Shown here: positions 5,635 through 20,704 of the stretch, in pieces
Position numbering within the stretch: position 1 is the first letter of the stretch
Layout of the letters: each line of letters starts with the position of its first letter
Source: Campylobacteraceae bacterium
GTDB lineage: Bacteria; Campylobacterota; Campylobacteria; Campylobacterales; Arcobacteraceae
Length of the DNA stretch: 56,814 nucleotides
Assembly (NCBI GenBank): GCA_018662405.1
Contig: JABJGE010000092.1
Location: 1-56,814, forward strand
Direction: 5' to 3'
The notes under the pieces: model-generated
What the model was told of the DNA's origin: nothing
The model's database searches: none
The model's input: only the letters and a program-made list of their open reading frames with translations
Translations under genes and position numbers: made by a program

Positions 5635-8600
5635 ATGTTCGAAAGATTTTTAAGATTTTTTATAAATAATGCTAGAATGAACTACACACTATTTGTATTA
5701 TTATTTGCAGTTGGTGTTGTATCATATATAAAGACACCTAAAGAGATATTTCCTGTATTTGATTTAGATATGATATCTATCAAAGGTAGTTATACTGGAG
5801 CTAGTTCGGATATACTTGATAAGATGGTAGTTCGAGATATTGAAGATGATGTAAAAAGTATTAATGGTATTACAGACATATCTACTATTATTAATCCTGG
5901 AAGATTTTCTATTATACTTGAGCTTGAAAAAGGTACAAATAGATTTAATATAGCAAATCAAGTTAAAGATGTAGTTGCATTAACAAAACAAAACTTACCA
6001 ACTGATATGGATGATCCAATAGTAAGTGTTTTAGATTTACATAAAAACCTAGTAGAAGTCTCACTAAAATCAAATAAAGTAAGTTTCGATGAGCTAAAAA
6101 CAAATGCAAAAGATTTACGATCAAAATTATTATCCTTAAAAAATATATCTGAAGTTAATATTTATGGTGATAGTGATAAATTTTATGAAATTATTTTAGA
6201 TGAACAGAAGATTCAATCATATAATTTAAATACAAGTGATATATATAATGCAATAGGTGGAATCTCTTTTATATATCCAGTAGGAAAAATAGAAGGAGAT
6301 AAAAAACACTTTTTTTTATCTACATATAATGGAGCTAAAAATCTTAAAGAATTTTCTCAAACAATAATAAAAATAAATACTCAAACAATATATTTACGAG
6401 ATATTGCTACTATTAAAAAAAGATATGAAGATTCTAGTACTCTTTTTTCAGTTGATGGAAAAAAAGCAATCAATCTTGTAATTAAGCAAAATAAAGATGG
6501 TAATGCATTAACAATTACATCTAAAATAGAAAAATTATTAAAAGAAGAATCTCTTAAAAATTCATCAGTTGAATTTGTAATTAGAAATGATCAATCTGTT
6601 AAAATCAAAGATAGACTTAATATTGTAGTTTCAAATATATTATTAGGTGTAATTGCTATTACATTAATTGTTGCATTACTTATTAATTCAAGAATGGCAT
6701 TCATTATTATGATAGGAATTCCTACATCATTTGTAATAGGTGCTATTTACCTTTATATATTTGGATATACAATAAATATGATTTCTTTGGTAGGGGTATT
6801 AATTGCATTAGGAATTATTGTAGATGATGCAATGGTTGTAAGTGAAAATATACAACAAAAAGTAGAATCTGGAATGGAACCAAAGGAGGCAGCTATAAAA
6901 GGTGCTTCGGAGATGGCTAAACCTGTATTTATATCTTCTATTACAACTTTATTTGCTTTTTTACCAGCATTAATGATATCTGGGACTATGGGCGAAGTAA
7001 TTAAATTAATACCAATAGCAATTTCTGCTTTAATTGTAGCATCGCTTATTGAGTCATTTATATTTTTACCAATTCATGCCGCACATACACTTAAAAAAGA
7101 AGCAAAGACATTAGATTGGACAAGAATCAATCAAAGTTATAGCACAATAATACATCTTTGTATGAAATATAAAAAAACATTTCTTATATCATTTATAATT
7201 TTAGTACCACTATTAACTGTTCTTGTTGTAAAAAAATCTAAATTTCAGATGTTTCCATCTTTTGATTCTAGTATTGTAAGTATTACTATGAAAGCTAATG
7301 TAAATACAACATTAGAAAAAAGTTTTGATATTGTAAGCTCTATAGAAAAAGATATTTTAAAAGAAAAAGATAAATTCTTTATTAACAATATAGGAAGTGT
7401 TGCAGGATACAGAAGAGATAGTGGATCTAATACAGAAAACTATTCATATGTTATGTATATGACCATTGAGTTAGAAAAATTAAAAGAACAAAATTTTGTA
7501 GATAAATATATTACACCTTACTTGAGTTTCTATTATGATAGTAATAATAGATCTAGAGAAATAGATTCCCAAGAAGTGTCACAATTATTGAAAAAGTTTC
7601 TAAAAGATAAAAACTATATTGAAAAATTTAATTTAACAGATTTAGCAGTAGTTGAAAAAAAAGTAGGACCTATAAAGGCAGATATTAAAATTGGACTGAT
7701 ATCTGGAGACTATGAAAAGATATCATCGTCAATAAAAAAGCTTGAAGATAAACTAAATTCAATTAAAGGTATAAAGTCTGTTGCTAATTCTACTAATATA
7801 GGTGTAGAAGAATTAAAAATAAAAGTAAACCAATATGGATTATCTCTTGGGGTGGATGAACAATATATTGGAACATATTTATCAAATATATATTCATCAA
7901 AAAAGAAAACAACTGCATTTGATGATATTCAAATGTTAGATATTAAAATTACATCTATAAATAAAGATAATGTAGATAATTTAGAAGATATGCAAATTCC
8001 ATTAAAAGATGGAAGTATTGTATCCTTAAAAGATATATGTGAATTTAAAATCATAACATCATACGAAAAAATAATAAAAGAAAATGGTGAAGCAAATTTC
8101 TATGTATTTGCAAATGTGAATAAAAAGATTATCACATCAATAGAAGTGATGGATACAATTCAACCAATTCTAGATGAGATAAAAAATAGTGGTGTAAAAA
8201 TGATATTTAAAGGTGAAGCAGAGAAAAATAAAGAATTAAAACAAGATATGTTACTTGCTACTGCTTTAGCTATGGTATTAATTATGTTATCAATGTTATA
8301 TTTATTTAATTCATTTAAAGAAACCTTTATAGTAATGTCTGTAATACCTTTTTCACTTTTAGGAGTATTAATAGGGCATCAAATTATGGGTGTAAATTTA
8401 GGTATGACAACAATGATAGGAGCTTTAGGTTTAGCTGGTGTTGTAATTAATGATGGAATTATTATGATGACATATCTTAAGAAAGCGAAAACAATTGAAG
8501 AAGTATTTATACAAGGTGCAAAAAGGTTTAGACCAATAATACTCACATCTGTAACAACACTAATTGGTGTATCTACTATGATATTCTTTCCTACGGGTCA

Positions 8601-8715
8601 AGCTGTAATATTCCAACCACTTGCAATTGCTTTAGGATTTGGTCTTTTATGGGGAACAATTATTAATCTTGTTTATTTACCTGTATTATATACATTTGCA
8701 AATAAGTTAAAATAG
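5635..8715 (+). CDS. RND-family efflux permease (AcrB/MdtB-like)
   Basis: This is an inner-membrane, proton-driven pump subunit of the resistance-nodulation-division superfamily. The 1026 residues match the family length. It has the usual plan: one N-terminal membrane helix (about 14-31), a periplasmic porter half (about 32-325), a block of membrane helices (about 326-480), a helix near 510-530, a second periplasmic half and a final helix block (about 870-1020). The segment with IALGIIVDDAMVVSENI (about 387-403) holds the adjacent aspartates of the proton relay. No membrane-fusion protein or outer-membrane channel gene lies next to it, so partners must be encoded elsewhere. The substrate cannot be read from sequence. 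It is transcribed alone, between the rpsR terminator and a 275-base spacer. Confidence 0.92.
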   Translation: MFERFLRFFINNARMNYTLFVLLFAVGVVSYIKTPKEIFPVFDLDMISIKGSYTGASSDILDKMVVRDIEDDVKSINGITDISTIINPGRFSIILELEKGTNRFNIANQVKDVVALTKQNLPTDMDDPIVSVLDLHKNLVEVSLKSNKVSFDELKTNAKDLRSKLLSLKNISEVNIYGDSDKFYEIILDEQKIQSYNLNTSDIYNAIGGISFIYPVGKIEGDKKHFFLSTYNGAKNLKEFSQTIIKINTQTIYLRDIATIKKRYEDSSTLFSVDGKKAINLVIKQNKDGNALTITSKIEKLLKEESLKNSSVEFVIRNDQSVKIKDRLNIVVSNILLGVIAITLIVALLINSRMAFIIMIGIPTSFVIGAIYLYIFGYTINMISLVGVLIALGIIVDDAMVVSENIQQKVESGMEPKEAAIKGASEMAKPVFISSITTLFAFLPALMISGTMGEVIKLIPIAISALIVASLIESFIFLPIHAAHTLKKEAKTLDWTRINQSYSTIIHLCMKYKKTFLISFIILVPLLTVLVVKKSKFQMFPSFDSSIVSITMKANVNTTLEKSFDIVSSIEKDILKEKDKFFINNIGSVAGYRRDSGSNTENYSYVMYMTIELEKLKEQNFVDKYITPYLSFYYDSNNRSREIDSQEVSQLLKKFLKDKNYIEKFNLTDLAVVEKKVGPIKADIKIGLISGDYEKISSSIKKLEDKLNSIKGIKSVANSTNIGVEELKIKVNQYGLSLGVDEQYIGTYLSNIYSSKKKTTAFDDIQMLDIKITSINKDNVDNLEDMQIPLKDGSIVSLKDICEFKIITSYEKIIKENGEANFYVFANVNKKIITSIEVMDTIQPILDEIKNSGVKMIFKGEAEKNKELKQDMLLATALAMVLIMLSMLYLFNSFKETFIVMSVIPFSLLGVLIGHQIMGVNLGMTTMIGALGLAGVVINDGIIMMTYLKKAKTIEEVFIQGAKRFRPIILTSVTTLIGVSTMIFFPTGQAVIFQPLAIALGFGLLWGTIINLVYLPVLYTFANKLK

Positions 8716-8759
8716 TTATTCAATAGGAATAACTATAAGTATATACTTAATATATACTT

Positions 8760-8789
8760 AATATAATTAATTAATTAATTAATTATATT
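8760..8789. repeat. 30-base perfect palindrome of TAAT repeats
   Basis: Five and a half tandem TAAT units (8764-8785) flanked by symmetric AT bases give a palindrome identical on both strands. It could be a cruciform, a protein-binding site or part of the RND gene terminator; its role is unknown. Confidence 0.75.
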
Positions 8790-8857
8790 TATAATTATAT
8801 TCTATCCTTAAAAGTAATTGTAAAGCCCTTTACTTCAGTCATGTCTCTCTCTCTATA

Positions 8858-8863
8858 TATAAT
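8858..8863 (+). promoter_or_regulatory. Candidate -10 element upstream of the FCSD-like gene
   Basis: TATAAT following a CT-rich run lies 128 bases ahead of the ATG at 8991. If used, the leader would be long. The AT-rich composition makes chance matches common, so this is weak. Confidence 0.25.
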
Positions 8864-8990
8864 AAAAAATCATTATAAAATAAAATTAATATAAAAAATT
8901 CTAAATAATAAAAACTTATGTTTAAGGAAGTTATAAGCATATGAGTGTCAAAATAATGACGTTATAAAATTATAAGAAAAAGGAATACAC

Positions 8991-10367
8991 ATGACAAGAA
9001 GAGATCTATTTAAAGTTGCTGGAGTTACTGCTGCATCAGCTGTTGTAACTGGTTGTACTGCAAGTACTGGAGTATCTACTCCAAACACTCAAGGTGCTAC
9101 AAATACTTTGATGCCAAAATCAAATGGTAAAAGAGTTGTAATTATTGGTGGTGGTTACGGTGGTTTAACTGCAGCTAAATATATAAGAAAAGGTGATAAA
9201 ACAACTGAGGTTGTAGTATTAGAAAAGAAAGATATATTTATGTCTTGTCCATTCTCAAATGCATTATTAGGTGGAATGGAAGATGTTTCATTAGATACTC
9301 TTACTCATGATTTATATTCTGGTGCACAAGCACATGGTTACCATATGATTCAAACAGAAGTAACTGCAATTAATAGAGGTTCTAAAGTTGTAACTACGTC
9401 AAAAGGTACAATTGATTACGATATCTTAGTTATGTCTCCAGGTATTGCTTATAATTATGAAGATCAATTTAAAGGTTGGGATGCAAATAAAATTGCTGAT
9501 ATCCAACAAAATGCACCTGCAGCATTAATGCCAGGTAGTGAGCATTTAGCATTAAAAAGACAATTAGAAAATATGGATGATGGTGATGTAATTATTACTA
9601 AACCAGCTGGTAAATATAGATGTCCACCTGCACCATTTGAGAGAGCTTGTATGATTGCTTCTTACATGGAAAAAGAAGGCATTAAAGGTAAAGTTATTAT
9701 TTTAAATGAAAATAAAAGCGTTGCAAAAGGTAAAGCATTTAAAGAAGCATGGAAAGAATTATATGGAAAAAGAATTATCCATATGACAAACTGTAATATT
9801 GATGATGTAGATATGGATAAAAAAGAAGTTCACTTTACACAAAAAGATTCACTTGGTGATACTAAAAAAAGATCTCATAAGTTCCAAGTATTAAATTTAA
9901 TACCACATAACAAAGCTAATCCAGTAGTTGAGATGTCAGGTGTTGAAACTACAACAAGTTTTGGTAAGGTAGTAATGAATGGTTGTTCTTTCCAAACTAA
10001 ATCTGATAAAAACGTATATGCAATTGGAGATGTAGTAGGTCATGCTATACCACCATCAGGTCAAACTGCAAACTGGGCTGCAAAAGAAGCTGCTTCTGAA
10101 ATTGTTGCTCAATTAAATGGTAAAGCTCATACATTAGGTGTTAAAGCTAAAACTGTTAATGCTGGTAATGTTTGTTATTCAATGGTTGGAGATAAACCTG
10201 AGTCTGCAATTATGGTTACACATGATTTCTCATGGACTGGTAAAGTTATTAAAGGTAAAGGAAATGTTCCAAAACCAAAAGATGGAAAAGGAAAATTCAG
10301 ATCTAAAAATGTTGCAAAAGCAACTAGAGAATGGTACAGAGGAATTGTTAGCGATTTATTTGCATAA
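8991..10367 (+). CDS. Flavocytochrome c sulfide dehydrogenase-like flavoprotein (FccB/SoxF family)
   Basis: Likely oxidises sulfide, or another reduced sulfur compound, in the periplasm and passes electrons to a cytochrome. Residues 3-8 (RRDLFK) are a twin-arginine signal. The signal peptide ends in VVTGC with C22, so Tat export with lipid attachment is possible. The FAD-binding GGGYGG is at 53-58. Compared from memory with Allochromatium FccB, C86 (in SCPFSN) aligns with the cysteine that binds FAD covalently. C211 (RCPPAPFER) and C395 (NVCYSM) align with the redox disulfide. All three are kept, supporting true FCSD chemistry. The usual diheme subunit is not adjacent; a terminator, a Rieske gene and a monoheme cytochrome gene follow. 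AAAGGAA precedes the start. Confidence 0.88.
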   Translation: MTRRDLFKVAGVTAASAVVTGCTASTGVSTPNTQGATNTLMPKSNGKRVVIIGGGYGGLTAAKYIRKGDKTTEVVVLEKKDIFMSCPFSNALLGGMEDVSLDTLTHDLYSGAQAHGYHMIQTEVTAINRGSKVVTTSKGTIDYDILVMSPGIAYNYEDQFKGWDANKIADIQQNAPAALMPGSEHLALKRQLENMDDGDVIITKPAGKYRCPPAPFERACMIASYMEKEGIKGKVIILNENKSVAKGKAFKEAWKELYGKRIIHMTNCNIDDVDMDKKEVHFTQKDSLGDTKKRSHKFQVLNLIPHNKANPVVEMSGVETTTSFGKVVMNGCSFQTKSDKNVYAIGDVVGHAIPPSGQTANWAAKEAASEIVAQLNGKAHTLGVKAKTVNAGNVCYSMVGDKPESAIMVTHDFSWTGKVIKGKGNVPKPKDGKGKFRSKNVAKATREWYRGIVSDLFA

Positions 10368-10390
10368 TAACAATTAATTAATCAAAAATA

Positions 10391-10428
10391 GGAAAGAGGG
10401 GTAGGTGCGAAAACCCCTCTTTTTTTAG
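10391..10428 (+). terminator. Intrinsic terminator or attenuator between FCSD-like and Rieske genes
   Basis: AAAGAGGGG (10393-10401) pairs with CCCCTCTTT (10414-10422), with further T after it. It lies 24 bases after the FCSD-like stop and 22 bases before the next ATG. It probably lowers expression of the two downstream genes relative to the flavoprotein. Confidence 0.88.
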
Positions 10429-10449
10429 TTTAAAAAATAAGGACAATTT

Positions 10450-11181
10450 ATGGAAAGAAGAGATTTTTTTAAGTTAGTAACTTCTAGTGCAGCAGTTGTT
10501 GCAATTAGCCCATCTTTAATAACTACAAGATTACAAGCACATGATGGAAGACTTTATGAATCATATGAAAAAGTACAATTATTAGATAAAGATGGTAATC
10601 CACTTAAAGCAAGTAATATAGTTAATGAAGAAAACTATATATTTAATTATCCATTTGTAGGAACACCTGCTATGTTATTAAATTTACCAGAAACTTGTAA
10701 AGAACCTGTAACATTGAAATCTTCAGAAGGTGAAGAATATGTTTGGAATGAAGGTACAGGATCTAAAAAAACAATAGTTGCATATGCTGCAATCTGTACA
10801 CACTCATTAACTCATCCAAATAAAAGTGAAAGCTTTCTTAGTTATATGAAAAAGGGTGGTAAAACAATGGCTTGTCAGCAAGATGGAGTAATTGTTTGTT
10901 CATCGCACCTTTCTGCTTTTGAACCAAAATGTGGCGCAAAAAATATTGCTGGACCTGCAGATCAACCTTTAGCTGCAATTGTATTAGAACATGATACAGC
11001 TAACGATACTTTACATGCAGTAGGTGTATTAGGTCCTGATAAATATCATGATTATTTCAAAGCATTTAGAACTGAAATGAAAAAAGAATGGGGTGGCAAA
11101 AGAAAGGCCAAAAAGAAAGTAACAGACAGTGCAAAAGTTGTTAAGCTTTCAGAATACACTAAAGAAATTATCCAATATTAA
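10450..11181 (+). CDS. Tat-exported Rieske [2Fe-2S] protein
   Basis: A periplasmic electron-transfer protein. The N-terminus ERRDFFKLV (2-10) followed by a hydrophobic stretch is a twin-arginine signal; whether it is cleaved or acts as an anchor is unclear. The Rieske ligands are visible as CTH (C116, H118) and CSSH (C150, H153). The extra disulfide cysteines inside the cluster-binding boxes of cytochrome bc1 Rieske proteins are absent, though C142 and C161 could form another bridge. The C-terminal 40 residues are Lys-rich. It is 243 residues, with AAGGA before the ATG. It sits between the FCSD-like gene and a c-type cytochrome gene, which suggests one electron-transfer chain. It is not the bc1 PetA, since no petB or petC is adjacent. 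Confidence 0.87.
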   Translation: MERRDFFKLVTSSAAVVAISPSLITTRLQAHDGRLYESYEKVQLLDKDGNPLKASNIVNEENYIFNYPFVGTPAMLLNLPETCKEPVTLKSSEGEEYVWNEGTGSKKTIVAYAAICTHSLTHPNKSESFLSYMKKGGKTMACQQDGVIVCSSHLSAFEPKCGAKNIAGPADQPLAAIVLEHDTANDTLHAVGVLGPDKYHDYFKAFRTEMKKEWGGKRKAKKKVTDSAKVVKLSEYTKEIIQY

Positions 11182-11193
11182 TAAAGGAAAAAT

Positions 11194-11610
11194 ATGAATA
11201 AAATTATATTACTAATTACATTATTATGTACAACAAATATTTTTGCAGAGTCTATTGAAGATCAAGTGCAAAGAAAAATGGATATGCAAACACTATCTAC
11301 TGGATTAGAGATGGTTCAAAAAGGTATATTATATAATAACCCATCATTAACTAAAACTGGTATTAGTATGATAAAAAAAGGTCAAAAAAAACTTATTGAA
11401 TCACATGGTGAAGATCTTAAAAAATATTTACCAATGGATAGTGCTTTTGCATTTAAGTTTGCAAAATCTGCTGCAAAAAGAATACAAGATTATTCTGATG
11501 AACTTACAGAAGATTTAAATAGTAAAAAAGATTATATGAAAATATCTGCCTCTTATACGCATATAATGAATGAGTGTGCTGGATGTCATCTTCGAATTAG
11601 AAAGTGGTAA
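11194..11610 (+). CDS. Periplasmic monoheme c-type cytochrome with C-terminal heme site
   Basis: The first 18 residues form a Sec signal peptide ending NIFA. The mature protein is helical. It carries a single CAGCH heme-attachment motif near its C-terminus (C128, C131, H132), followed only by LRIRKW. A C-terminal CxxCH in a roughly 120-residue helical protein resembles cytochrome c' (four-helix bundle). The arginine shortly after the motif fits too, but overall family identity is not proven. It lies 12 bases after the Rieske gene stop with AAAGGAA before the ATG, so the two are co-transcribed. Likely role: electron acceptor or shuttle for the upstream flavoprotein or Rieske protein. An alternative is an NO-binding c'-type protein. 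Confidence 0.82.
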   Translation: MNKIILLITLLCTTNIFAESIEDQVQRKMDMQTLSTGLEMVQKGILYNNPSLTKTGISMIKKGQKKLIESHGEDLKKYLPMDSAFAFKFAKSAAKRIQDYSDELTEDLNSKKDYMKISASYTHIMNECAGCHLRIRKW

Positions 11611-11630
11611 GCGTATTTGTTAAAATACTA

Positions 11631-11666
11631 AAAAAAAGGTGTACAGATTATCTGTACACCTTTTTT
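11631..11666. terminator. Bidirectional intrinsic terminator between the cytochrome gene and valS
   Basis: A perfect ten-pair stem GGTGTACAGA / TCTGTACACC (11638-11647, 11651-11660, loop TTA) is flanked by seven A and six T. It can therefore stop transcripts arriving from either side. The two genes converge here. Confidence 0.95.
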
Positions 11667-11679
11667 AGTTTATATATCG

Positions 11680-14298
11680 TTAAACTAAAGCTTGTAACTC
11701 AAGTTCAACTTTTTCTAGTTTTTGGCTAGCTGATTCTAGACCTTTTTTATTTACTTCAATTACTTCAGGTTTTGCATTTGCTACAAACTTTTCATTTGAA
11801 AGCATTCCTGTTAATTTTTGTACTTCTTTTTCTAGTTTTTCTTTTTGCTTAGTTAATTTAGAGATAATTGGAGTCATGTCAATTTCACCAGTTGGTAAAT
11901 AAACTTCAAGATTATCAGATACATCAGTAATAGAATTTTCAACTTTAGCATCTACAAATTCTATATTTTCAACTTTAGCAAGTTTTTCAATAAATGGACG
12001 AGCAATATTAGTATCAATATTAGTATTTAATTTGATATATGCTTTTGAAATCTTACTATTACCCATATCTATAATTACTTTTGCTCTTCGTAGGGCTGTA
12101 ATAGATTCTTCTATAATTGTAAACATATCTTCTACTTCAATATCTCTTTTGATATTTTTAGGGAAGTTGTTAATCATTAAAGATTCACCATCTTCAAGAG
12201 TAGTTCCTGAAAGTTTATGATATAGATTATCTGCAATAAATGGCATAAACGGAGATATCATTTTAAGAGTTTCTTTAAAAATCGCTCCAAGCTCTACAAT
12301 AGATTCTTTTGAAGCTTTTGAGTATTCAATACCCCAATCACAGTATTCATTCCATACAAAGTTATATAGTACTCTTGCTGCTTCATTAAATTTAAACTCA
12401 TCAATTGTATTTCTAATATCTTCAACTGCTACACTAAGTCTTGATTGCATATAAAGACCTAATGGTGTTTTAACTTGAATATTTTTTAAGTCAGGGAAAG
12501 TTTCTACATTTAATTGTAAAAAATTTGTCGCATTATATAGTTTATTTGTAAAGTTTCTAAACTGCTCTAAGTTCTTTTCACCTAATTTAATATCTCTACC
12601 TTGAACTGCAAGGTAAGCTAATGTAAATCTAATAATATCAGCAGAATGTGCTTCAACCATATCAAGTGGATCAATTACATTTCCTTTTGATTTTGACATC
12701 TTAGCACCATGTTCATCACGAACTAAGGCATGCATATAAATATCTTTAAATGGTAACTCTTTTTCAAAATGCTCACCCATCATCATCATTCTAGCTACCC
12801 AGAAAAACATAATATCAAAACCTGTAATTAACAAAGAGTTTGGATAAAAGTCTGCCATATCAGTATCATTGTAAAGTTCTTTTAACTCTCCATTATTTCC
12901 CCAACCTAAAGGCGACATAGCCCAAAGTGCTGAAGAGAACCAAGTATCTAATACATCTGGATCTTGAGTCATATTTTTACCATTACATTTTGGACAACAT
13001 TCTGGTTCATCATTTTTATCTGCCCATTGATGATTACAGTTAGAATCATCACAAGTAAATACTGGAATTCTATGTCCCCACCAAAGTTGTCTAGAGATAC
13101 ACCAAGGTCTAAGCTCATCCATCCAAGCTGTGTATGAATTTATCCAATGTGGTGGGTGAAAATTATTATTTGCTTTAGTTTTATCAATTGAATTTTGAGC
13201 CATCTCATTAGATAAAAACCATTGAGTTGAGATAAAAGGTTCAACTATATTTTTACATCTATAACAGTGTCCTACTTGATGAACATGATCTTCAATTTTA
13301 ACAATATATCCAGCATTTTCTAAAGCTTTAACGATAACTGGTCTAGCTTCAAGTCGTTCTAATCCAGCAAACTCCCCACAATAATCATTTAAAATACCTT
13401 TTTCATCAAATACTTTAATAAACTCTAAATTATGTCTTTTACCAACAGCATAATCATTTTGGTCATGTGCTGGTGTAACTTTAACCACACCAGTACCAAA
13501 TTCCATATCAACATGAGAATCTGTAATAACTTTAATAGTTCTATCAGTCAAAGGAAGTAATACATCTTTTCCTACAATATTAGTGTATCGTGAATCATCA
13601 GGATGTACCATAATAGCAGTATCCCCAAAATAAGTTTCAGGTCTTGTTGTAGCAACTTCAAGCTCTCCACTACCATCAGCAAATTTATAGATCATATGAT
13701 AAAATTTACCTTGAACTTCATCATGTTCAACCTCTATATCACTTAGTGCACCATCATGTGTACACCAATTTACCATATAATTATTTTGAGTAATTTGCCC
13801 TTCATCATATAAAGATACAAATGCTTCTTTTACTGCTTCATGAAGTCCAGAATCTAAAGTAAATCTTTCTCTTTTCCAAGCAGGAGTAACTCCCAGCTTT
13901 CTCATTTGATGTACAATGTTTCCACCTGAAGTTTCTTTTTGCTTCCAAGCTCTCTCAAGAAATTTTTCACGACCAATTTCTTCTTTTGTAGTACCTTCAG
14001 CTAAAAGTTGTTTTTCAACTACATTTTGAGTTGCAATTCCAGCATGATCTGTTCCTGGTTGCCATAAAGTTTTATATCCATCCATTCTTTTGTATCTAGT
14101 AATAATATCTTGTAAAGTAAATGTAAGTGCATGACCAATATGTAAACTTCCTGTTACATTTGGTGGTGGCATCATAATTGAAAAGTTTTTACCTTCTTCT
14201 TGAATTGACTTATTTCCATCAATTTCAAAATAACCTCTATCTTCACATAGTTTGTAGTATTTATCTTCTACTTCTTTTGGATTGTATTTATTACTCAT
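11680..14298 (-). CDS. valS: Valyl-tRNA synthetase
   Basis: Class I synthetase that charges tRNA-Val and edits mischarged threonine. The signature PNVTGSLHIGHAL holds HIGH at residues 53-56, and KMSKS lies near residue 533. Cysteine pairs near 348-351 (CYRCKN) and 425-443 suggest zinc sites. The CP1 editing domain lies between about 160 and 340. The C-terminal 70 residues form the coiled-coil arm typical of ValRS. Length 872 is normal. The start ATG at 14298 is preceded by AAGGAAC, and a -10 box lies at 14337-14332. The gene stands alone and ends at the bidirectional terminator. Confidence 0.98.
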   Translation of the reverse strand: MSNKYNPKEVEDKYYKLCEDRGYFEIDGNKSIQEEGKNFSIMMPPPNVTGSLHIGHALTFTLQDIITRYKRMDGYKTLWQPGTDHAGIATQNVVEKQLLAEGTTKEEIGREKFLERAWKQKETSGGNIVHQMRKLGVTPAWKRERFTLDSGLHEAVKEAFVSLYDEGQITQNNYMVNWCTHDGALSDIEVEHDEVQGKFYHMIYKFADGSGELEVATTRPETYFGDTAIMVHPDDSRYTNIVGKDVLLPLTDRTIKVITDSHVDMEFGTGVVKVTPAHDQNDYAVGKRHNLEFIKVFDEKGILNDYCGEFAGLERLEARPVIVKALENAGYIVKIEDHVHQVGHCYRCKNIVEPFISTQWFLSNEMAQNSIDKTKANNNFHPPHWINSYTAWMDELRPWCISRQLWWGHRIPVFTCDDSNCNHQWADKNDEPECCPKCNGKNMTQDPDVLDTWFSSALWAMSPLGWGNNGELKELYNDTDMADFYPNSLLITGFDIMFFWVARMMMMGEHFEKELPFKDIYMHALVRDEHGAKMSKSKGNVIDPLDMVEAHSADIIRFTLAYLAVQGRDIKLGEKNLEQFRNFTNKLYNATNFLQLNVETFPDLKNIQVKTPLGLYMQSRLSVAVEDIRNTIDEFKFNEAARVLYNFVWNEYCDWGIEYSKASKESIVELGAIFKETLKMISPFMPFIADNLYHKLSGTTLEDGESLMINNFPKNIKRDIEVEDMFTIIEESITALRRAKVIIDMGNSKISKAYIKLNTNIDTNIARPFIEKLAKVENIEFVDAKVENSITDVSDNLEVYLPTGEIDMTPIISKLTKQKEKLEKEVQKLTGMLSNEKFVANAKPEVIEVNKKGLESASQKLEKVELELQALV

Positions 14299-15003: not shown

Positions 15004-16203
15004 ATGATAGAGATTTTTATATTTGTAATTGGTATTATTATTGGTAGTATAGTAGCTTGGTATATTTTAAAAAATAAATTTGATATACATACGACTTCAA
15101 TTTTAAATGAATCAAATATAAAATTATCCTCACTTCAAACTCAATTAAATTTACAAAAAGATCATTATGAAGATAAATTAAATACTCTTGAATCTTCAAA
15201 AGATCAAATGAAGCAAGAATTTGAAAATCTTGCAAATAAAATATTTGATCAAAATAATAAAAAATCAAATGATAATTTATCTATTCTTTTAACTCCATTT
15301 AAAGATCAACTAAAATCTTTTGGTTCAAGAGTAGATGAGATATATAATGAAGAGACAAAACAAAGATCATCTCTTTTAACAGAGATAAAAAACTTAAAAG
15401 AATTAAATAACCAAATTAGTACTGATGCTCTTAATCTTACAAAAGCACTTAAGGGTGAAAATAAAACTCAAGGTGATTGGGGTGAGATGATCTTATCTAA
15501 AATACTTGAGCAAACAGGACTACGAGAAGGTATTGAATATGAAACACAAGGGAGTTATACCTCTGAAGATGGTAAAAGATTAAGACCTGATGTAATTTTA
15601 CATTTACCAGAAGAAAAAGATATTATTATTGATTCAAAAGTATCTTTAGTGTCATATTTGAATTATACAAATGCTAGCGATAGCCAGTCTCAAGATAAAG
15701 CCACAAAAGAGTTAGTAAAGTCATTAACAACACATATAAAAGATTTAAGTGGAAAAAGATATGACAATATTGAACAAATAAAAACATTAGATTTTGTACT
15801 AATGTTTATACCAATAGAAGCTGCTTTTACACTTGCTGCATCAAGTGATCCAAAATTATTTAAAACTGCATTTGAAAGTAATATTATGCTTGTTTCTCCA
15901 TCTACATTATTCGTTACACTTCGTACGATTGAAAATATTTGGAGGTATGAACATCAAAGTAATAATGCCCAATTGATTTCTAAAAAAGCAGCATCATTGT
16001 ATGATAAATTTGCTGGGTTTGTAAAAGACATGGATAATATAGGTGTACATATTAGTAGAACTCAAAAAGCTTATGATGATGCTACAAATAAACTAAGTAG
16101 TGGTAAGGGAAATCTTTTACGACAAAGTGAACAGTTTTTGGATCTTGGAGTAAAGCCAAAAACAAAGATTAAAACAAAAATGATTGAAACTATAGAGGAG
16201 TAA
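15004..16203 (+). CDS. rmuC: DNA recombination protein RmuC
   Basis: RmuC-family proteins limit inversions at short inverted repeats and resemble nucleases; the mechanism is not well established. Residues 1-20 form an N-terminal membrane anchor. Residues about 35-95 are a coiled coil rich in Gln, Lys and Asn. The conserved RmuC domain spans about 140-375. It includes GDWGEMILSKILEQTGL (157-173), the RPDVILHLP and DSKVSL strands (near 193-214) and FIPIEAAFTLA. The DSKVSL stretch resembles the core of PD-(D/E)xK-type folds. The gene starts 8 bases after the PhnA-like gene and ends 2 bases before the carbonic anhydrase gene. The ribosome-binding site is weak. Confidence 0.92.
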   Translation: MIEIFIFVIGIIIGSIVAWYILKNKFDIHTTSILNESNIKLSSLQTQLNLQKDHYEDKLNTLESSKDQMKQEFENLANKIFDQNNKKSNDNLSILLTPFKDQLKSFGSRVDEIYNEETKQRSSLLTEIKNLKELNNQISTDALNLTKALKGENKTQGDWGEMILSKILEQTGLREGIEYETQGSYTSEDGKRLRPDVILHLPEEKDIIIDSKVSLVSYLNYTNASDSQSQDKATKELVKSLTTHIKDLSGKRYDNIEQIKTLDFVLMFIPIEAAFTLAASSDPKLFKTAFESNIMLVSPSTLFVTLRTIENIWRYEHQSNNAQLISKKAASLYDKFAGFVKDMDNIGVHISRTQKAYDDATNKLSSGKGNLLRQSEQFLDLGVKPKTKIKTKMIETIEE

Positions 16204-16205
16204 TT

Positions 16206-16844
16206 ATGCATATTGATAAACTTATTAAAGGTAATAAAAAATTTAGAAATACAACGTTTTCAAATCATAAAGAAGACTTTGATTCTTTAGTAAAATATGG
16301 TCAGAAACCTGAAGTTCTTTTTATAGGATGTAGTGACAGTAGGGTTGTTCCAGATTTAATAGTAGATAGTTCTCCTGGGGATATGTTTATATTACGAAAT
16401 ATAGGTAATTTTGTACCTCCTCATAAAGCAGATAATGATTTTCATGGGTCTAGTGCAGCTATTGAATTTGCAGTATCTGCATTGGAAGTAAAAGATATTA
16501 TAGTTTGTGGACATAGTTATTGTGGCGCATGTGAAGCTTTATATGATGATACATTAAAGTCTAAACCAGATTTAAGTCATGTATCTAAATGGTTAGAACT
16601 TGGTTTAAAAGCAAAAGAACAAGCTATTTTGGAATTAGAAAATAACAATAATACAGAACATCTTTTAAGAATTACAGAAAAAGCTTCCATTAAATTTCAA
16701 CTTGAAAATTTATTAACATACCCTGCTATTGCTAGAAGAGTTAAAGAAAAAAGCTTAACTTTGCATGGATGGTATTATAAAATTGAAGATGGGACAATAG
16801 AATCTTATTGTCCACAAGACGATAAATTCGTCTTATTGGATTAA
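16206..16844 (+). CDS. Beta-class carbonic anhydrase
   Basis: A zinc enzyme that interconverts CO2 and bicarbonate. The beta-class ligands are visible: C42 with the dyad D44 and R46 in GCSDSR, then H103 and C106 in GHSYCGAC. The 212-residue length fits. No signal peptide is seen, so it is cytosolic. In microaerophilic Campylobacterota it likely supplies bicarbonate for carboxylation and pH balance, which is family knowledge and inference. GAGGAG sits just ahead of the start. The last 4 bases overlap the end of the opposing DUF3817 gene. Confidence 0.95.
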   Translation: MHIDKLIKGNKKFRNTTFSNHKEDFDSLVKYGQKPEVLFIGCSDSRVVPDLIVDSSPGDMFILRNIGNFVPPHKADNDFHGSSAAIEFAVSALEVKDIIVCGHSYCGACEALYDDTLKSKPDLSHVSKWLELGLKAKEQAILELENNNNTEHLLRITEKASIKFQLENLLTYPAIARRVKEKSLTLHGWYYKIEDGTIESYCPQDDKFVLLD

Positions 16845-17155
16845 GAGTTACAGTTCTCTTTTACTTTTTCATTATCTAACATTTTATCTGTAAATGTAGT
16901 CCCAAATGGTATTAGAGAAGCTATAAATAATAATGCAGAAAATTTAGGTTTAAAATTATATTTATCATGAGAAGATGATAATAAAACTAACCATATAATA
17001 AATAAAATACCGTGAGTCATACCCATGATTTTTGTCGCAATAGCAATACCCATCATATATTTCAATGGCATTGCTACAAATACTAATAAAATAAAAGATA
17101 TCCCTTCTATAAAATTTATAAATCTAAATTTTTCTAAAGTTGTTTTGTTCATCAT
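16841..17155 (-). CDS. DUF3817 small integral membrane protein
   Basis: A 104-residue inner-membrane protein with three hydrophobic segments (about 15-33, 40-59, 70-88). The N-terminal motif FRFINFIEGISFILLVFVAMPLKY and the later MGMTHGILF are typical of the DUF3817 family; the function is unknown. The start ATG shares one base with the der stop (TAATG), so it is translationally coupled as the third gene of the mscS-der operon. Its end overlaps the carbonic anhydrase gene by 4 bases from the opposite strand, with no terminator between them. Confidence 0.82.
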   Translation of the reverse strand: MMNKTTLEKFRFINFIEGISFILLVFVAMPLKYMMGIAIATKIMGMTHGILFIIWLVLLSSSHDKYNFKPKFSALLFIASLIPFGTTFTDKMLDNEKVKENCNS

Positions 17156-18741
17156 TATTTTGGTTCCTGTTCATTATATGTTTTGTCATTATATTCATAT
17201 ATTTCATTATCATCATCTTCATACATTACAACTTCACCTTCTTCAGAAATATAAGTATGGTGATTTCCTACATTTGGTCCAAGTACTTCATACACTGGTA
17301 CATAGTCATCATCTGGTGTAATATTATCTCTTTTTCCACGAGCAATAATATGAATAGGTGTACCTTCAAAGTTTAAGGCACCTCTTAGGAAATTAATTAA
17401 GTATCTTTTATAAGAGAAGTGAAGCATTTTAGGTTTATTCATAACCAGTGCAAATGTAGGTGGTGTAGATTTAAACTGTGTAGAGAAATAAATTCTTAGC
17501 ATATTTCCATTTGGTGATGGTAAAGAGTGCCTTCTTGTAGCGGCATTAATGATTTCATTAATTCTAGATGTAGGTGTTCTTCTGTTAAAGTTATCATAAA
17601 TTTCGAATAATTTTTCTTGAAGTTTATCAATACTTCTTCCTGTTTTAGCAGAAACTACAACAACTGGAGCATAATAAAGAAATTTGAATTTACCTCTAAT
17701 CTCTTCTACCATCTCTTTGTATGGTTTCATTGTTTCGTCCCATTTATTAAGAACAATAATAGTTCCTAGAGCAAATTTATCTACAAGACCAGCAATTTTT
17801 TCATCTTGATCTGTAATTGGTAAACTAGCATCAATTACAATTAATGCTAGATTTGCTTGTGCTAACATATCGTTTGTTCTCATTAAAGCGTATTTTTCAA
17901 TACCTTCAATTTTACCTCTTCTTCTTAATCCTGCAGTATCAACGAATGTGATTTTCTTATCACCTACAAACATTGTCTCATCAACAGGATCAATAGTTGT
18001 ACCAGCTACTGGACTAACTACGGATCTTTCTTCTCCTACTAGGGCATTAAGAATTGAACTTTTTCCAACATTTACTTTACCAATAATTGCAACTTTTAGA
18101 TGATTATCTGGAGCATCAAGCTTTTTATCTTGTTCTTCTGATTCTAAATCTTCTTCTATTAAAAGATCTTCAAAAGATGGATCATCATTATCTAGTACAA
18201 CAGTATTTGCTTCAACATTTACAGGAAGTTCTTCATAAATCCATTCAAATAGTCTTTTTATACCACGGTTGTGTGAAACTGAAATACCAAACATATTTTC
18301 TTCATCGATTCCAAATTGATAGAAGTCCCAAAGCATATCTTTTTCTTTGTCATTATCAATTTTATTTACTACAAGAGCTAATTGTTTACCTAAAGCTTGT
18401 AATTCATAAAATAATTCTCTATCTCTATCGTCTGGAAGCTTTTTACCATCAACCATAAATAGAACTATATCAGCTTCTTTTGCTGTTTGTATGGCTTTTC
18501 TTTTCACATGCTTGAAGATTTTGTATTCACTATTATCTTCCATGATTTCACCTTTAGATTGTCCAATACCACCTGTATCTAACATCAAAGCTCGTCTATC
18601 TAGTATTTCTACCTCATGTCTTCTAACATCTCTAGTAGTACCAGATACATCACTTACAATAGCAATTCTTTTTTTCGCTATTCTATTAAATAGTGAACTT
18701 TTTCCAACATTTGGTTGCCCAATTAGTGCAATTTTTTTCAA
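17155..18741 (-). CDS. der: Ribosome biogenesis GTPase Der (EngA)
   Basis: A double GTPase needed for assembly of the 50S subunit. The first G domain has GQPNVGKSS (8-16), DTGG (55-58) and NKID (126-129). The second has GKVNVGKSS (221-229), DTAGL (268-272) and NKWD (near 325-328). The KH-like domain follows from about residue 390. At 528 residues it is longer than the roughly 440-490 usual, because of an acidic linker (about 184-212) and a Tyr/Asp/Glu-rich C-terminal tail of about 45 residues. The start overlaps the end of the mscS-like gene by 4 bases (ATGA). Confidence 0.97.
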   Translation of the reverse strand: MKKIALIGQPNVGKSSLFNRIAKKRIAIVSDVSGTTRDVRRHEVEILDRRALMLDTGGIGQSKGEIMEDNSEYKIFKHVKRKAIQTAKEADIVLFMVDGKKLPDDRDRELFYELQALGKQLALVVNKIDNDKEKDMLWDFYQFGIDEENMFGISVSHNRGIKRLFEWIYEELPVNVEANTVVLDNDDPSFEDLLIEEDLESEEQDKKLDAPDNHLKVAIIGKVNVGKSSILNALVGEERSVVSPVAGTTIDPVDETMFVGDKKITFVDTAGLRRRGKIEGIEKYALMRTNDMLAQANLALIVIDASLPITDQDEKIAGLVDKFALGTIIVLNKWDETMKPYKEMVEEIRGKFKFLYYAPVVVVSAKTGRSIDKLQEKLFEIYDNFNRRTPTSRINEIINAATRRHSLPSPNGNMLRIYFSTQFKSTPPTFALVMNKPKMLHFSYKRYLINFLRGALNFEGTPIHIIARGKRDNITPDDDYVPVYEVLGPNVGNHHTYISEEGEVVMYEDDDNEIYEYNDKTYNEQEPK

Positions 18742-19775
18742 TTCATTTCGCCTTTTTCAATATATATTGATTGTGATGGGAATGCAAAGCTTGCATTATT
18801 ATTCTCAATAATTTTCATAATATTAAAGTTTGTATCTTCTTTAACTGACATAAACTCTCCCCAATTTGTTGTTTTTGTAAAGTAGTAACAAAAAATATTT
18901 AAACTACTATTATCAAACTCTGTAAAATATATGTGTATAGTGTCTTGATGGATATCATTATGACTTTTAAGCATATCTTTTATCTGAGATACAATTGTTT
19001 CCATTGTTTGTACATTTGTATCATATGTTAGACCAAGTTTCATTTTTATTCTTCGTTTACCCATTTGCGACCAGTTTAATATGGCACTATTAGCTAAAAC
19101 TGCATTTGGTACAGTAACAAGTGCTTGTGCAAATGTTCTAACCTTAGTACTTCTTATTCCAATAGATTCGATAGTACCTTCTACATCAGGTGTTTTAATC
19201 CAATCTCCAATTTTAAATGGTCTATCACTGAAGATTACTAGAGAACCAAAAAGATTAGCAGCTGTATCTTTTGCAGCAAGAGCAAATGCCATACCTACAA
19301 GTCCTAGCGATGCTAAGAATCCACTAATATTGTAACCCCATTCTTGTAAGATTGATACAAAACCAATTGCAATTACTAAAAACTTTAAAGTTTTAACAAT
19401 AAAGTTAGCAATATCTTCACTTAATTCTTTACCAAATTTAGATGTAAATTTGTGAATTATACCAGATAAAGGAGTTAGTGTATTAAATATAATCCAAAAA
19501 ATCGAGAATGCAAAAGCTGATCTTATAAGGTTTGTAGCAATGGTATCAAAACTTGAACTAAATGATAAAAAATCTTTTGCTATTGAAATACCAATAATTA
19601 TAATTAAGAAATCAATAGGTTTTTTTATAGCTTCAACTAGTTTATCATCAAAATCAGTTTTTGTTTTCACTGTTAATTTTGTTAAAAATGAAATTACTAT
19701 TTTTCTAAAAAGAACTCTTAAAAATAAAAAGGTTGAGAATGCAATAACGGCATATATTAAATTATTATCTATCAT
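18738..19775 (-). CDS. MscS-family small-conductance mechanosensitive channel
   Basis: An inner-membrane channel that opens under membrane tension to release solutes. Residues about 5-25, 50-70, 80-105 and 130-165 are hydrophobic. The pore-lining helix with ISGFLASLGLVGMAFALAA (about 149-167) and then KDTAANLFGS begins the conserved MscS core. The beta domain follows, with FKIGDWIKTPDVEGTIESIG (about 187-206) and STKVRTFAQALVTVPNAVL. At 345 residues it is somewhat longer than E. coli MscS (286), with an extra N-terminal helix. It is the first gene of the mscS-der-DUF3817 operon; the -10 lies 7 bases ahead of the start, so the leader would be very short. Confidence 0.93.
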   Translation of the reverse strand: MIDNNLIYAVIAFSTFLFLRVLFRKIVISFLTKLTVKTKTDFDDKLVEAIKKPIDFLIIIIGISIAKDFLSFSSSFDTIATNLIRSAFAFSIFWIIFNTLTPLSGIIHKFTSKFGKELSEDIANFIVKTLKFLVIAIGFVSILQEWGYNISGFLASLGLVGMAFALAAKDTAANLFGSLVIFSDRPFKIGDWIKTPDVEGTIESIGIRSTKVRTFAQALVTVPNAVLANSAILNWSQMGKRRIKMKLGLTYDTNVQTMETIVSQIKDMLKSHNDIHQDTIHIYFTEFDNSSLNIFCYYFTKTTNWGEFMSVKEDTNFNIMKIIENNNASFAFPSQSIYIEKGEMN

Positions 19776-19781
19776 ATCGCG

Positions 19782-19787
19782 ATTATA
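19782..19787 (-). promoter_or_regulatory. -10 element for mscS-der-DUF3817
   Basis: On the minus strand TATAAT is followed by CGCGATATG. It lies so close to the ATG at 19775 that the transcript would be almost leaderless if this start codon is used. Confidence 0.5.
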
Positions 19788-19810
19788 TCATAATTTTGGT
19801 AATATGCAAT

Positions 19811-20704
19811 ATGATTATTGAAAACAATACAAGACTAGCAATAAAATACATGCTACTATCATCTTTTTTATTTGCTTTTACTGGTGCTTTTGCAAAGCTT
19901 TTAAGTGGATATATGAGTTCAGTAGAAGTTGTATTTTTTAGAAATTTTTCTGGTGTACTTATTATTTTATATGCAATATATAAATCACCTTTAAAACAAC
20001 AAGGTGGAAAACCGTTATTATTATTTATGCGAGGATTTATTGGTTTTTTTGCACTTCTTATGTATTTTTATAACATAGCAAATATACCATTAGCTGAAGC
20101 TCAGACATTTAATAAAATATCTCCAATATTTACAGCAATATTTTCATATATATTACTCAATGAAAAATTATCAAAGCTTGCATGGCTTGGTGTATTTGTA
20201 GGATTTATTGGAGTATTATTCATTACAGGCTTTGATGTGACATCGTTAAGTAAAACTGATTGGTTGGGTATATTAAGTGGGGTAGGAGCAGGACTAGCAT
20301 ATACTTCAATACGAGAACTAAAAAATTACTATGATAATAAAAGTATTGTTTTGTCTTTTATGGTTGTAGGTACTATTGGCCCTATGATTCTTATGCTTAT
20401 TGGAGAGTTTGTCTATATAGATAGTATGGATTGGATAATAGCAAAATTTATTATGCCTAGTGGCATAGCATGGATATATATAGTTGGACTTGGGGTATTT
20501 GCTACATTTTCACAATGGTATATGACAAAAGCATATTCATTAGCAGCTGGTGGAATGGTAGGTACAATAAGTTATAGTAATATTATATTTTCAATTATTC
20601 TTGGTATGATACTAGGGGATATGTTTCCATCTTTTATGGTTATTATAGGTATAATACTAGTAATTATAAGTGGAATTTTAGTTACATTAAAAATAAAAGC
20701 TTAA
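19811..20704 (+). CDS. DMT-family (EamA) transporter
   Basis: An inner-membrane transporter of the drug/metabolite family with two EamA repeats and about ten membrane helices over 297 residues. Typical features are the first helix SSFLFAFTGAFAKLLSG, FFRNFSGVL (repeat 1) and AEAQTFNKISPIFTAIFSYILLNEKL. The second repeat starts near residue 140, with a similar AYSLAAGGMVGTISYSNIIFSIILGMILGD stretch near its end. The substrate is not predictable. A TTG 15 bases upstream is in frame, but the ATG at 19811 gives the more usual start; no clear ribosome-binding site is seen for either. It is followed 13 bases later by the DUF6394 gene. Confidence 0.88.
   Translation: MIIENNTRLAIKYMLLSSFLFAFTGAFAKLLSGYMSSVEVVFFRNFSGVLIILYAIYKSPLKQQGGKPLLLFMRGFIGFFALLMYFYNIANIPLAEAQTFNKISPIFTAIFSYILLNEKLSKLAWLGVFVGFIGVLFITGFDVTSLSKTDWLGILSGVGAGLAYTSIRELKNYYDNKSIVLSFMVVGTIGPMILMLIGEFVYIDSMDWIIAKFIMPSGIAWIYIVGLGVFATFSQWYMTKAYSLAAGGMVGTISYSNIIFSIILGMILGDMFPSFMVIIGIILVIISGILVTLKIKA

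Follow-up and report, generated by a model that had tools for sequence, protein, structure and literature searches.

An AioB-like Rieske protein replaces FccA beside an FCSD-type flavoprotein in Campylobacterota: a candidate periplasmic sulfide dehydrogenase

The window, a stretch of 56,814 nucleotides of a Campylobacteraceae genome, carries a three-gene operon on the + strand for an FccB-type flavoprotein of the flavocytochrome c sulfide dehydrogenase (FCSD) family, an AioB/SoxL2-like Rieske protein and a monoheme class-II-like cytochrome c. Across the phylum, it is well supported that the Rieske protein replaces FccA as the genetic unit with such flavoproteins.

We read the operon, with a probability of roughly 0.6, as a periplasmic sulfide dehydrogenase, in which the AioB-like Rieske protein would stand in the place of the FccA cytochrome and electrons would pass from FAD through the Rieske protein to cytochrome c. 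What we observe is the gene content, the protein families, the conserved ligands, the tight linkage and one Rieske module used with two flavoprotein clades; the substrate, the complex, the electron order and the membrane tether are what we infer.

The operon and its three proteins

The flavoprotein and Rieske genes are separated by 82 bases and the Rieske and cytochrome genes by 12 (Table 1). An RND-type transporter gene lies upstream of the flavoprotein gene, and a strong hairpin stands between the cytochrome gene and a convergent valyl-tRNA synthetase-like gene. Terminator-like sites number 4 against 0.7 expected. An earlier note on this DNA had the flavoprotein, Rieske and cytochrome content right, but missed the lipobox, the terminator and the absence of second cysteines for a Rieske disulfide.

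Table 1. Features of the operon and their positions in the window
Feature	Position	Strand	Remark
FCSD/FccB-type flavoprotein, clade A, 458 aa	8991..10367	+	Tat signal RRDLFK; Pfam, PDB, tree
Cys22, lipobox V-T-G-C, probable lipid anchor	9054..9056	+	motif in clade A members
Cys86, predicted covalent FAD cysteine	9246..9248	+	Cys in 5n1t/3vrd; 31/31 clade A
Cys211, redox disulfide	9621..9623	+	67/67 FCSD-like proteins
Cys395, redox disulfide	10173..10175	+	67/67 FCSD-like proteins
AioB/SoxL2-like Rieske [2Fe-2S] protein, RR signal, 243 aa	10450..11181	+	Pfam Rieske above cut-off
Rieske box 1, C116-T-H118	10795..10803	+	27/27; H122 invariant too
Rieske box 2, C150-S-S-H153, without bridging cysteine	10897..10908	+	27/27
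Monoheme class-II-like cytochrome c, cleavable signal, 138 aa	11194..11610	+	C-terminal CxxCH
Heme c attachment site CAGCH	11575..11589	+	32/32
Bidirectional terminator-like hairpin, 16 pairs, T tails both sides	11632..11666	.	strong; closes operon

Two Pfam domains, FCSD_central (4e-29) and FCSD-flav_bind (7e-7), match the flavoprotein above their cut-offs. The PDB chains that it matches best are of the FccB type, namely 5n1t, 3vrd and 1fcd (E 3e-57 to 1e-49, with 3e-57 for 5n1t), which we take to come from Thioalkalivibrio, Thermochromatium and Allochromatium, respectively. In the alignments to 5n1t and 3vrd, C86, C211 and C395 each stand opposite a cysteine, and their counterparts in Allochromatium FccB are Cys42, Cys161 and Cys337 (numbering of PMC3504083).

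The earlier note held that the covalent-FAD cysteine and both redox-disulfide cysteines are retained, and so they are: C86 in these alignments and in all 31 members of the window's clade, C211 and C395 invariantly in all 67 FCSD-like proteins. The window flavoprotein is a member of the FCSD flavoprotein (FccB/SoxF) family but not of an FccAB complex. Since the VTGC22 lipobox comes directly after the twin-arginine signal and a similar motif is kept in 28 of the 31 clade A members (C22 is 81% conserved), the clade A flavoproteins are probably Tat lipoproteins tethered to the membrane.

The Rieske ligands proved conserved, with the CxH and CxxH boxes kept in 27 of 27 relatives. Neither box has a second cysteine, so the bc1-type Rieske disulfide bridge is impossible here; Ser155 is present in 24 of the 27. 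The predicted structure (pLDDT 81) has its closest fold in the arsenite oxidase subunit AioB (E 1e-7), and the soxL2 model (TIGR03171) scores 97.6 bits, below its equivalog cut-off of 582.1.

The AioB of Rhizobium NT-26 is likewise bridge-less, with a potential of +225 mV (PMC3758308). The inference of a low potential from the missing disulfide was considered here and rejected, because the presence of the disulfide does not track potential among AioB proteins (PMC3758308). In arsenite oxidase, AioB receives electrons from the oxidoreductase subunit and delivers them to cytochrome c (PMC10071563, PMC5574378). Among plasmids, the window's Rieske protein matched just an arsenite oxidase subunit, 28% identical, and a scan of viral contigs found no Rieske relative.

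The C-terminal CxxCH and Met31 of the cytochrome are both invariant in 32 of 32 relatives, and the protein is predicted as a four-helix bundle (model pLDDT 85). The Cytochrom_C_2 match is below cut-off (E 0.06) and the fold matches to c'/b562 are not significant. The modelled layout suggests a class II cytochrome c (c'/c556) with a methionine ligand.

Two units elsewhere are without the class-II-like cytochrome and carry a gene for a tetra- or pentaheme protein and a DUF2603 gene directly upstream (L108, 11849-12910; L110, 11924-13105). The multiheme protein is a possible substitute electron outlet there.

Linkage and flavoprotein exchange across the phylum

We searched an even phylum sample of 298 genomes and another genome collection, which overlap partly so that their counts are not additive. 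The Rieske gene occurs in 25 of the 298 genomes (15 genera, 26 loci) and an FCSD gene adjoins it at every one of the 26 loci. The collection holds 25 flavoprotein relatives, all from Campylobacterota where the record names the group, with the Rieske gene adjacent in 24 and the cytochrome gene in 20. The flavoprotein–Rieske linkage is far beyond chance, and the rare co-occurrence that would have spoken against the gene set was not found. The exceptions to this linkage are L011 in the collection and the clade A gene L065 of G060 in the phylum set.

The cytochrome gene is present at 17 of the 26 Rieske loci and absent from 9, one of these at a contig edge. Those 17 loci coincide exactly with the best 17 matches to the cytochrome profile, an agreement partly by construction as the profile was partly built from the same sequences. 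The path from sulfide to FAD, Rieske and cytochrome c, as first suggested, is partly supported: the linkage backs a Rieske protein in the place of FccA as a genetic unit, the order would be as proposed below, and the cytochrome is less constant than the other two.

In the phylum sample, 49 genomes have FCSD-like genes, and no sampled FCSD gene adjoins a diheme FccA. The neighbours are indeed a Rieske protein and a C-terminal-heme cytochrome, as first noted, and a regular fccA partner, named beforehand as counter-evidence, was found beside none of the 16 FCSD genes in the sample that do not adjoin a Rieske gene. Nor was an AioA or cytochrome b partner gene found in any unit seen.

A canonical diheme FccA encoded elsewhere might still be the true partner, the Rieske protein being accessory, since Cytochrom_C domains are numerous in the genome and its draft is about 95% complete. 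We consider this extremely improbable. The genome's two-domain cytochromes lie in frames of about 300-400 aa or in sox loci, the frames fit c1, CcoP or SoxD (putative names) and not an FccA of about 200 aa, and the sampled FCSD genes are uniformly without such a neighbour.

A single conserved larger operon was considered and dropped because the flanking genes differ greatly from unit to unit (porin, SDF symporter, Na/sulfate symporter and others). A gene for a porin-like outer membrane protein recurs next to several units without being constant (L012 10249, L013 9695, L093 6930, L096 7347, L092 5938).

In the flavoprotein tree, clade A has 31 rows, the window's among them, and with two exceptions these are Rieske-linked. 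Clade B, distant from it, is mostly Rieske-linked too, and SoxCDYZ-linked FCSD genes nest inside it, such as two on contig C40 of the window genome. The earlier reading of one system had seen neither the two clades nor the tie of one of them to SoxYZ.

The covalent-FAD cysteine is replaced by glycine in L070 and in six Rieske-linked clade B proteins (L028 4693, L092, L094, L081, L104 and L013 6301), where FAD may be held without a covalent link.

The Rieske tree does not follow the split of the flavoproteins. A single clade of the Rieske proteins partnered with clade A is rejected (AU p 9e-6), and partners have changed between Rieske and flavoprotein clades at least seven times. Within one genus, the flavoprotein at the same locus is of clade A in G133 and G217 and of clade B in G176, the two types being 32-35% identical, while the flanks are mostly 62 to 84%, the Rieske proteins 76-83% and the cytochromes 71-80% identical. 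On these identities, the flavoprotein is swapped in place.

The swap is strong indirect evidence that the Rieske protein and the cytochrome are a common electron outlet. Because of the in-place replacement and the non-monophyly of the clade A Rieske proteins, we take the Rieske protein to serve both flavoproteins. That two deep flavoprotein clades share one Rieske family is new here.

These exchanges bear also on whether the Rieske protein draws electrons from quinol or a bc1 complex and has no more than a sulfur regulon in common with the flavoprotein. Rieske proteins of the bc1 type are quinol oxidants, and the present family matches bc1 models, if weakly. Yet no cytochrome b gene adjoins, and the window genome has a separate bc1-like Rieske gene on contig C62 beside a diheme c1-like gene. 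Moreover, the FCSD linkage at 26 of 26 loci persists in very different surroundings, even after flavoprotein replacement, and the quinol route is very unlikely.

Ties to the Sox system

The genes soxY and soxZ lie inside the unit in 9 phylum-sample genomes of four families and in L028, always with clade B (Pfam 3e-30 and 4e-23 for one such pair), and in none of the 31 clade A rows. SoxC is absent from all 9 genomes with in-unit soxYZ and present in all 6 clade B genomes without it. The p-values of this contrast, 2e-4 by genome and 0.002 by genus, are descriptive as it was spotted post hoc, and the genus counts handle relatedness only partly. SoxY is present in all 15 B-type genomes. Five of the 9 genomes have no SoxB and no second SoxY, and therefore their SoxYZ could serve only the Rieske unit or something unknown.

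Tentatively, and at somewhat less than even odds, the clade B units would be a SoxCD-less Sox variant, in which sulfur bound to the carrier is oxidised by the FCSD flavoprotein, the Rieske protein and the unit's own SoxYZ, even in bacteria lacking both SoxB and SoxCD. The Rieske–cytochrome module would then be a general periplasmic electron port plugged into two sulfur flavoproteins, and the window would carry its Sox-independent form.

Three clade A genomes (G203, G239 and G249) have no SoxY, SoxB or SoxC. Therefore, Sox is not required for clade A, and SoxYZ is not a necessary substrate for the window type. A SoxF-like role is that the flavoprotein loads, regenerates or oxidises SoxYZ-bound sulfur while the Rieske protein and the cytochrome drain the electrons, the SoxYZ for the window coming from other contigs. 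It agrees with the in-unit soxYZ genes, with SoxY throughout the B-type genomes, with units lacking soxYZ only where SoxC exists (9:0 versus 0:6) and with the nesting of SoxCDYZ-linked FCSD genes in clade B. However, all of this comes from clade B and the window protein belongs to clade A, for which we regard the SoxF-like role as unlikely.

The window genome has two soxCDYZ clusters and soxB, with full Sox genes on other contigs. The clusters (L004, contig C40) are at 5890-12704 and 16016-20000 and lie about 10 kb from each other. Both include a clade B FCSD gene and a gene for a DUF302 protein, and one includes a metallo-beta-lactamase-like gene as well. Between the clusters is a gene for an SQR-like flavoprotein with a cytochrome. 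The DUF302 protein, of about 300 aa, is found in some Rieske–SoxYZ units and in the SoxCDYZ clusters (L040 2590-3501, L042 2765-3676, L004 7317-8249).

Proposed electron path and relation to known systems

In the sulfide dehydrogenase that we favor, the flavoprotein would be exported folded via Tat and probably lipid-anchored. Using its disulfide and covalently bound FAD, it would convert sulfide (HS-) to sulfane sulfur or polysulfide, and pass electrons singly to the Rieske cluster. The compound oxidised might also be sulfane. From the Rieske protein the electrons would go on to a soluble cytochrome c, either the class-II-like one or another, and so reach a terminal oxidase or periplasmic reductases.

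The unit-bearing genomes, the window's included, also hold other SQR-like flavoproteins. With these and the full Sox of the window genome, other sulfide routes exist, and the flavoprotein might be specialised: its substrate could be a different thiol or persulfide, or it could reduce polysulfide or sulfane or serve in detoxification, rather than being an energy-conserving sulfide dehydrogenase. Enzymes with FAD and a disulfide act on several sulfur substrates. We find such a role improbable, as the FccB residues are closely conserved and sulfide activity has been measured for an Aquificota flavoprotein adjoining a Rieske gene (PMC3504083).

That flavoprotein is DhsU1, encoded in a dhsU1-Rieske-dhsU2-sox cluster of a Sulfurihydrogenibium-like bacterium; sulfide dehydrogenase activity was measured for the purified recombinant monomer (PMC3504083). 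Since monomeric DhsU1 is active in vitro, catalysis as such does not depend on the Rieske protein. Both gene sets place an FCSD flavoprotein with the same three cysteines beside Rieske and cytochrome-like genes, the Aquificota one near sox (PMC3504083). Compared by its description, the dhsU cluster differs in that it belongs to another phylum, two flavoproteins flank the Rieske gene and soxXYZAB is full (PMC3504083). The role of the Rieske protein was given no interpretation in that paper (PMC3504083).

The earlier note took the set for a candidate under-described system; a related gene set had been reported from an Aquificota bacterium in 2012 (PMC3504083). This paper was the only close prior art that we found in the literature on Rieske proteins with Sulfurimonas, FCSD or SoxF. 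In the main texts of the open-access literature, we found no paper that names a Rieske protein as FCSD partner or reports the two clades or the SoxYZ split. New here are also the soxYZ-bearing B-type units without SoxC, the Sox-less A-type genomes and the A-type flavoproteins as probable Tat lipoproteins.

At vents and in sulfidic sediments, Campylobacterota are the dominant sulfide oxidisers. FCSD genes are already known in them (PMC10066037, PMC12403661, PMC4288042), and their fcc genes are counted as evidence of sulfide oxidation (e.g. PMC10066037, PMC12403661). The non-canonical fcc of Sulfurimonas pluma and the Fcc of mangrove Campylobacteria resemble the window's flavoprotein gene as Campylobacterota FCSD-like genes and are transcribed in situ; the main texts on them mention no Rieske partner (PMC10066037, PMC12403661).

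We found no work identifying an electron acceptor of Campylobacterota Fcc, and the Rieske protein is a concrete and testable candidate. The Sox-independent and SoxYZ-tied FCSD types change the reading of metagenome annotations, and the two flavoproteins on one Rieske module constitute a natural partner-swap experiment.

The window flavoprotein shares with FccAB the FCSD domains, the covalent-FAD cysteine, the redox disulfide and Tat export. It differs by its lipobox and by having a Rieske protein and a monoheme class-II-like cytochrome instead of the mono- or diheme class I FccA subunit. With AioAB the window's unit shares the Tat-exported AioB-like Rieske protein, the layout of oxidoreductase, Rieske protein and cytochrome c, and the absence of bridge cysteines as in NT-26. 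Unlike AioAB, it has no molybdenum AioA, the FCSD flavoprotein is the catalytic partner and the Rieske protein is longer.

Monomeric SoxF is reported from Paracoccus pantotrophus and Chlorobaculum tepidum (as cited in PMC3504083). The clade B FCSD is like it in being tied to SoxYZ, whereas clade A, to which the window protein belongs, has no such tie. To our knowledge, monomeric SoxF has no Rieske partner. The SoxY proteins linked to Rieske genes (L098, L105, L108, L109, L110 and others) mostly end in GGCG, GGCS or GGCA, and those linked to SoxCD end in GGCGG or GGCEG, one residue longer.
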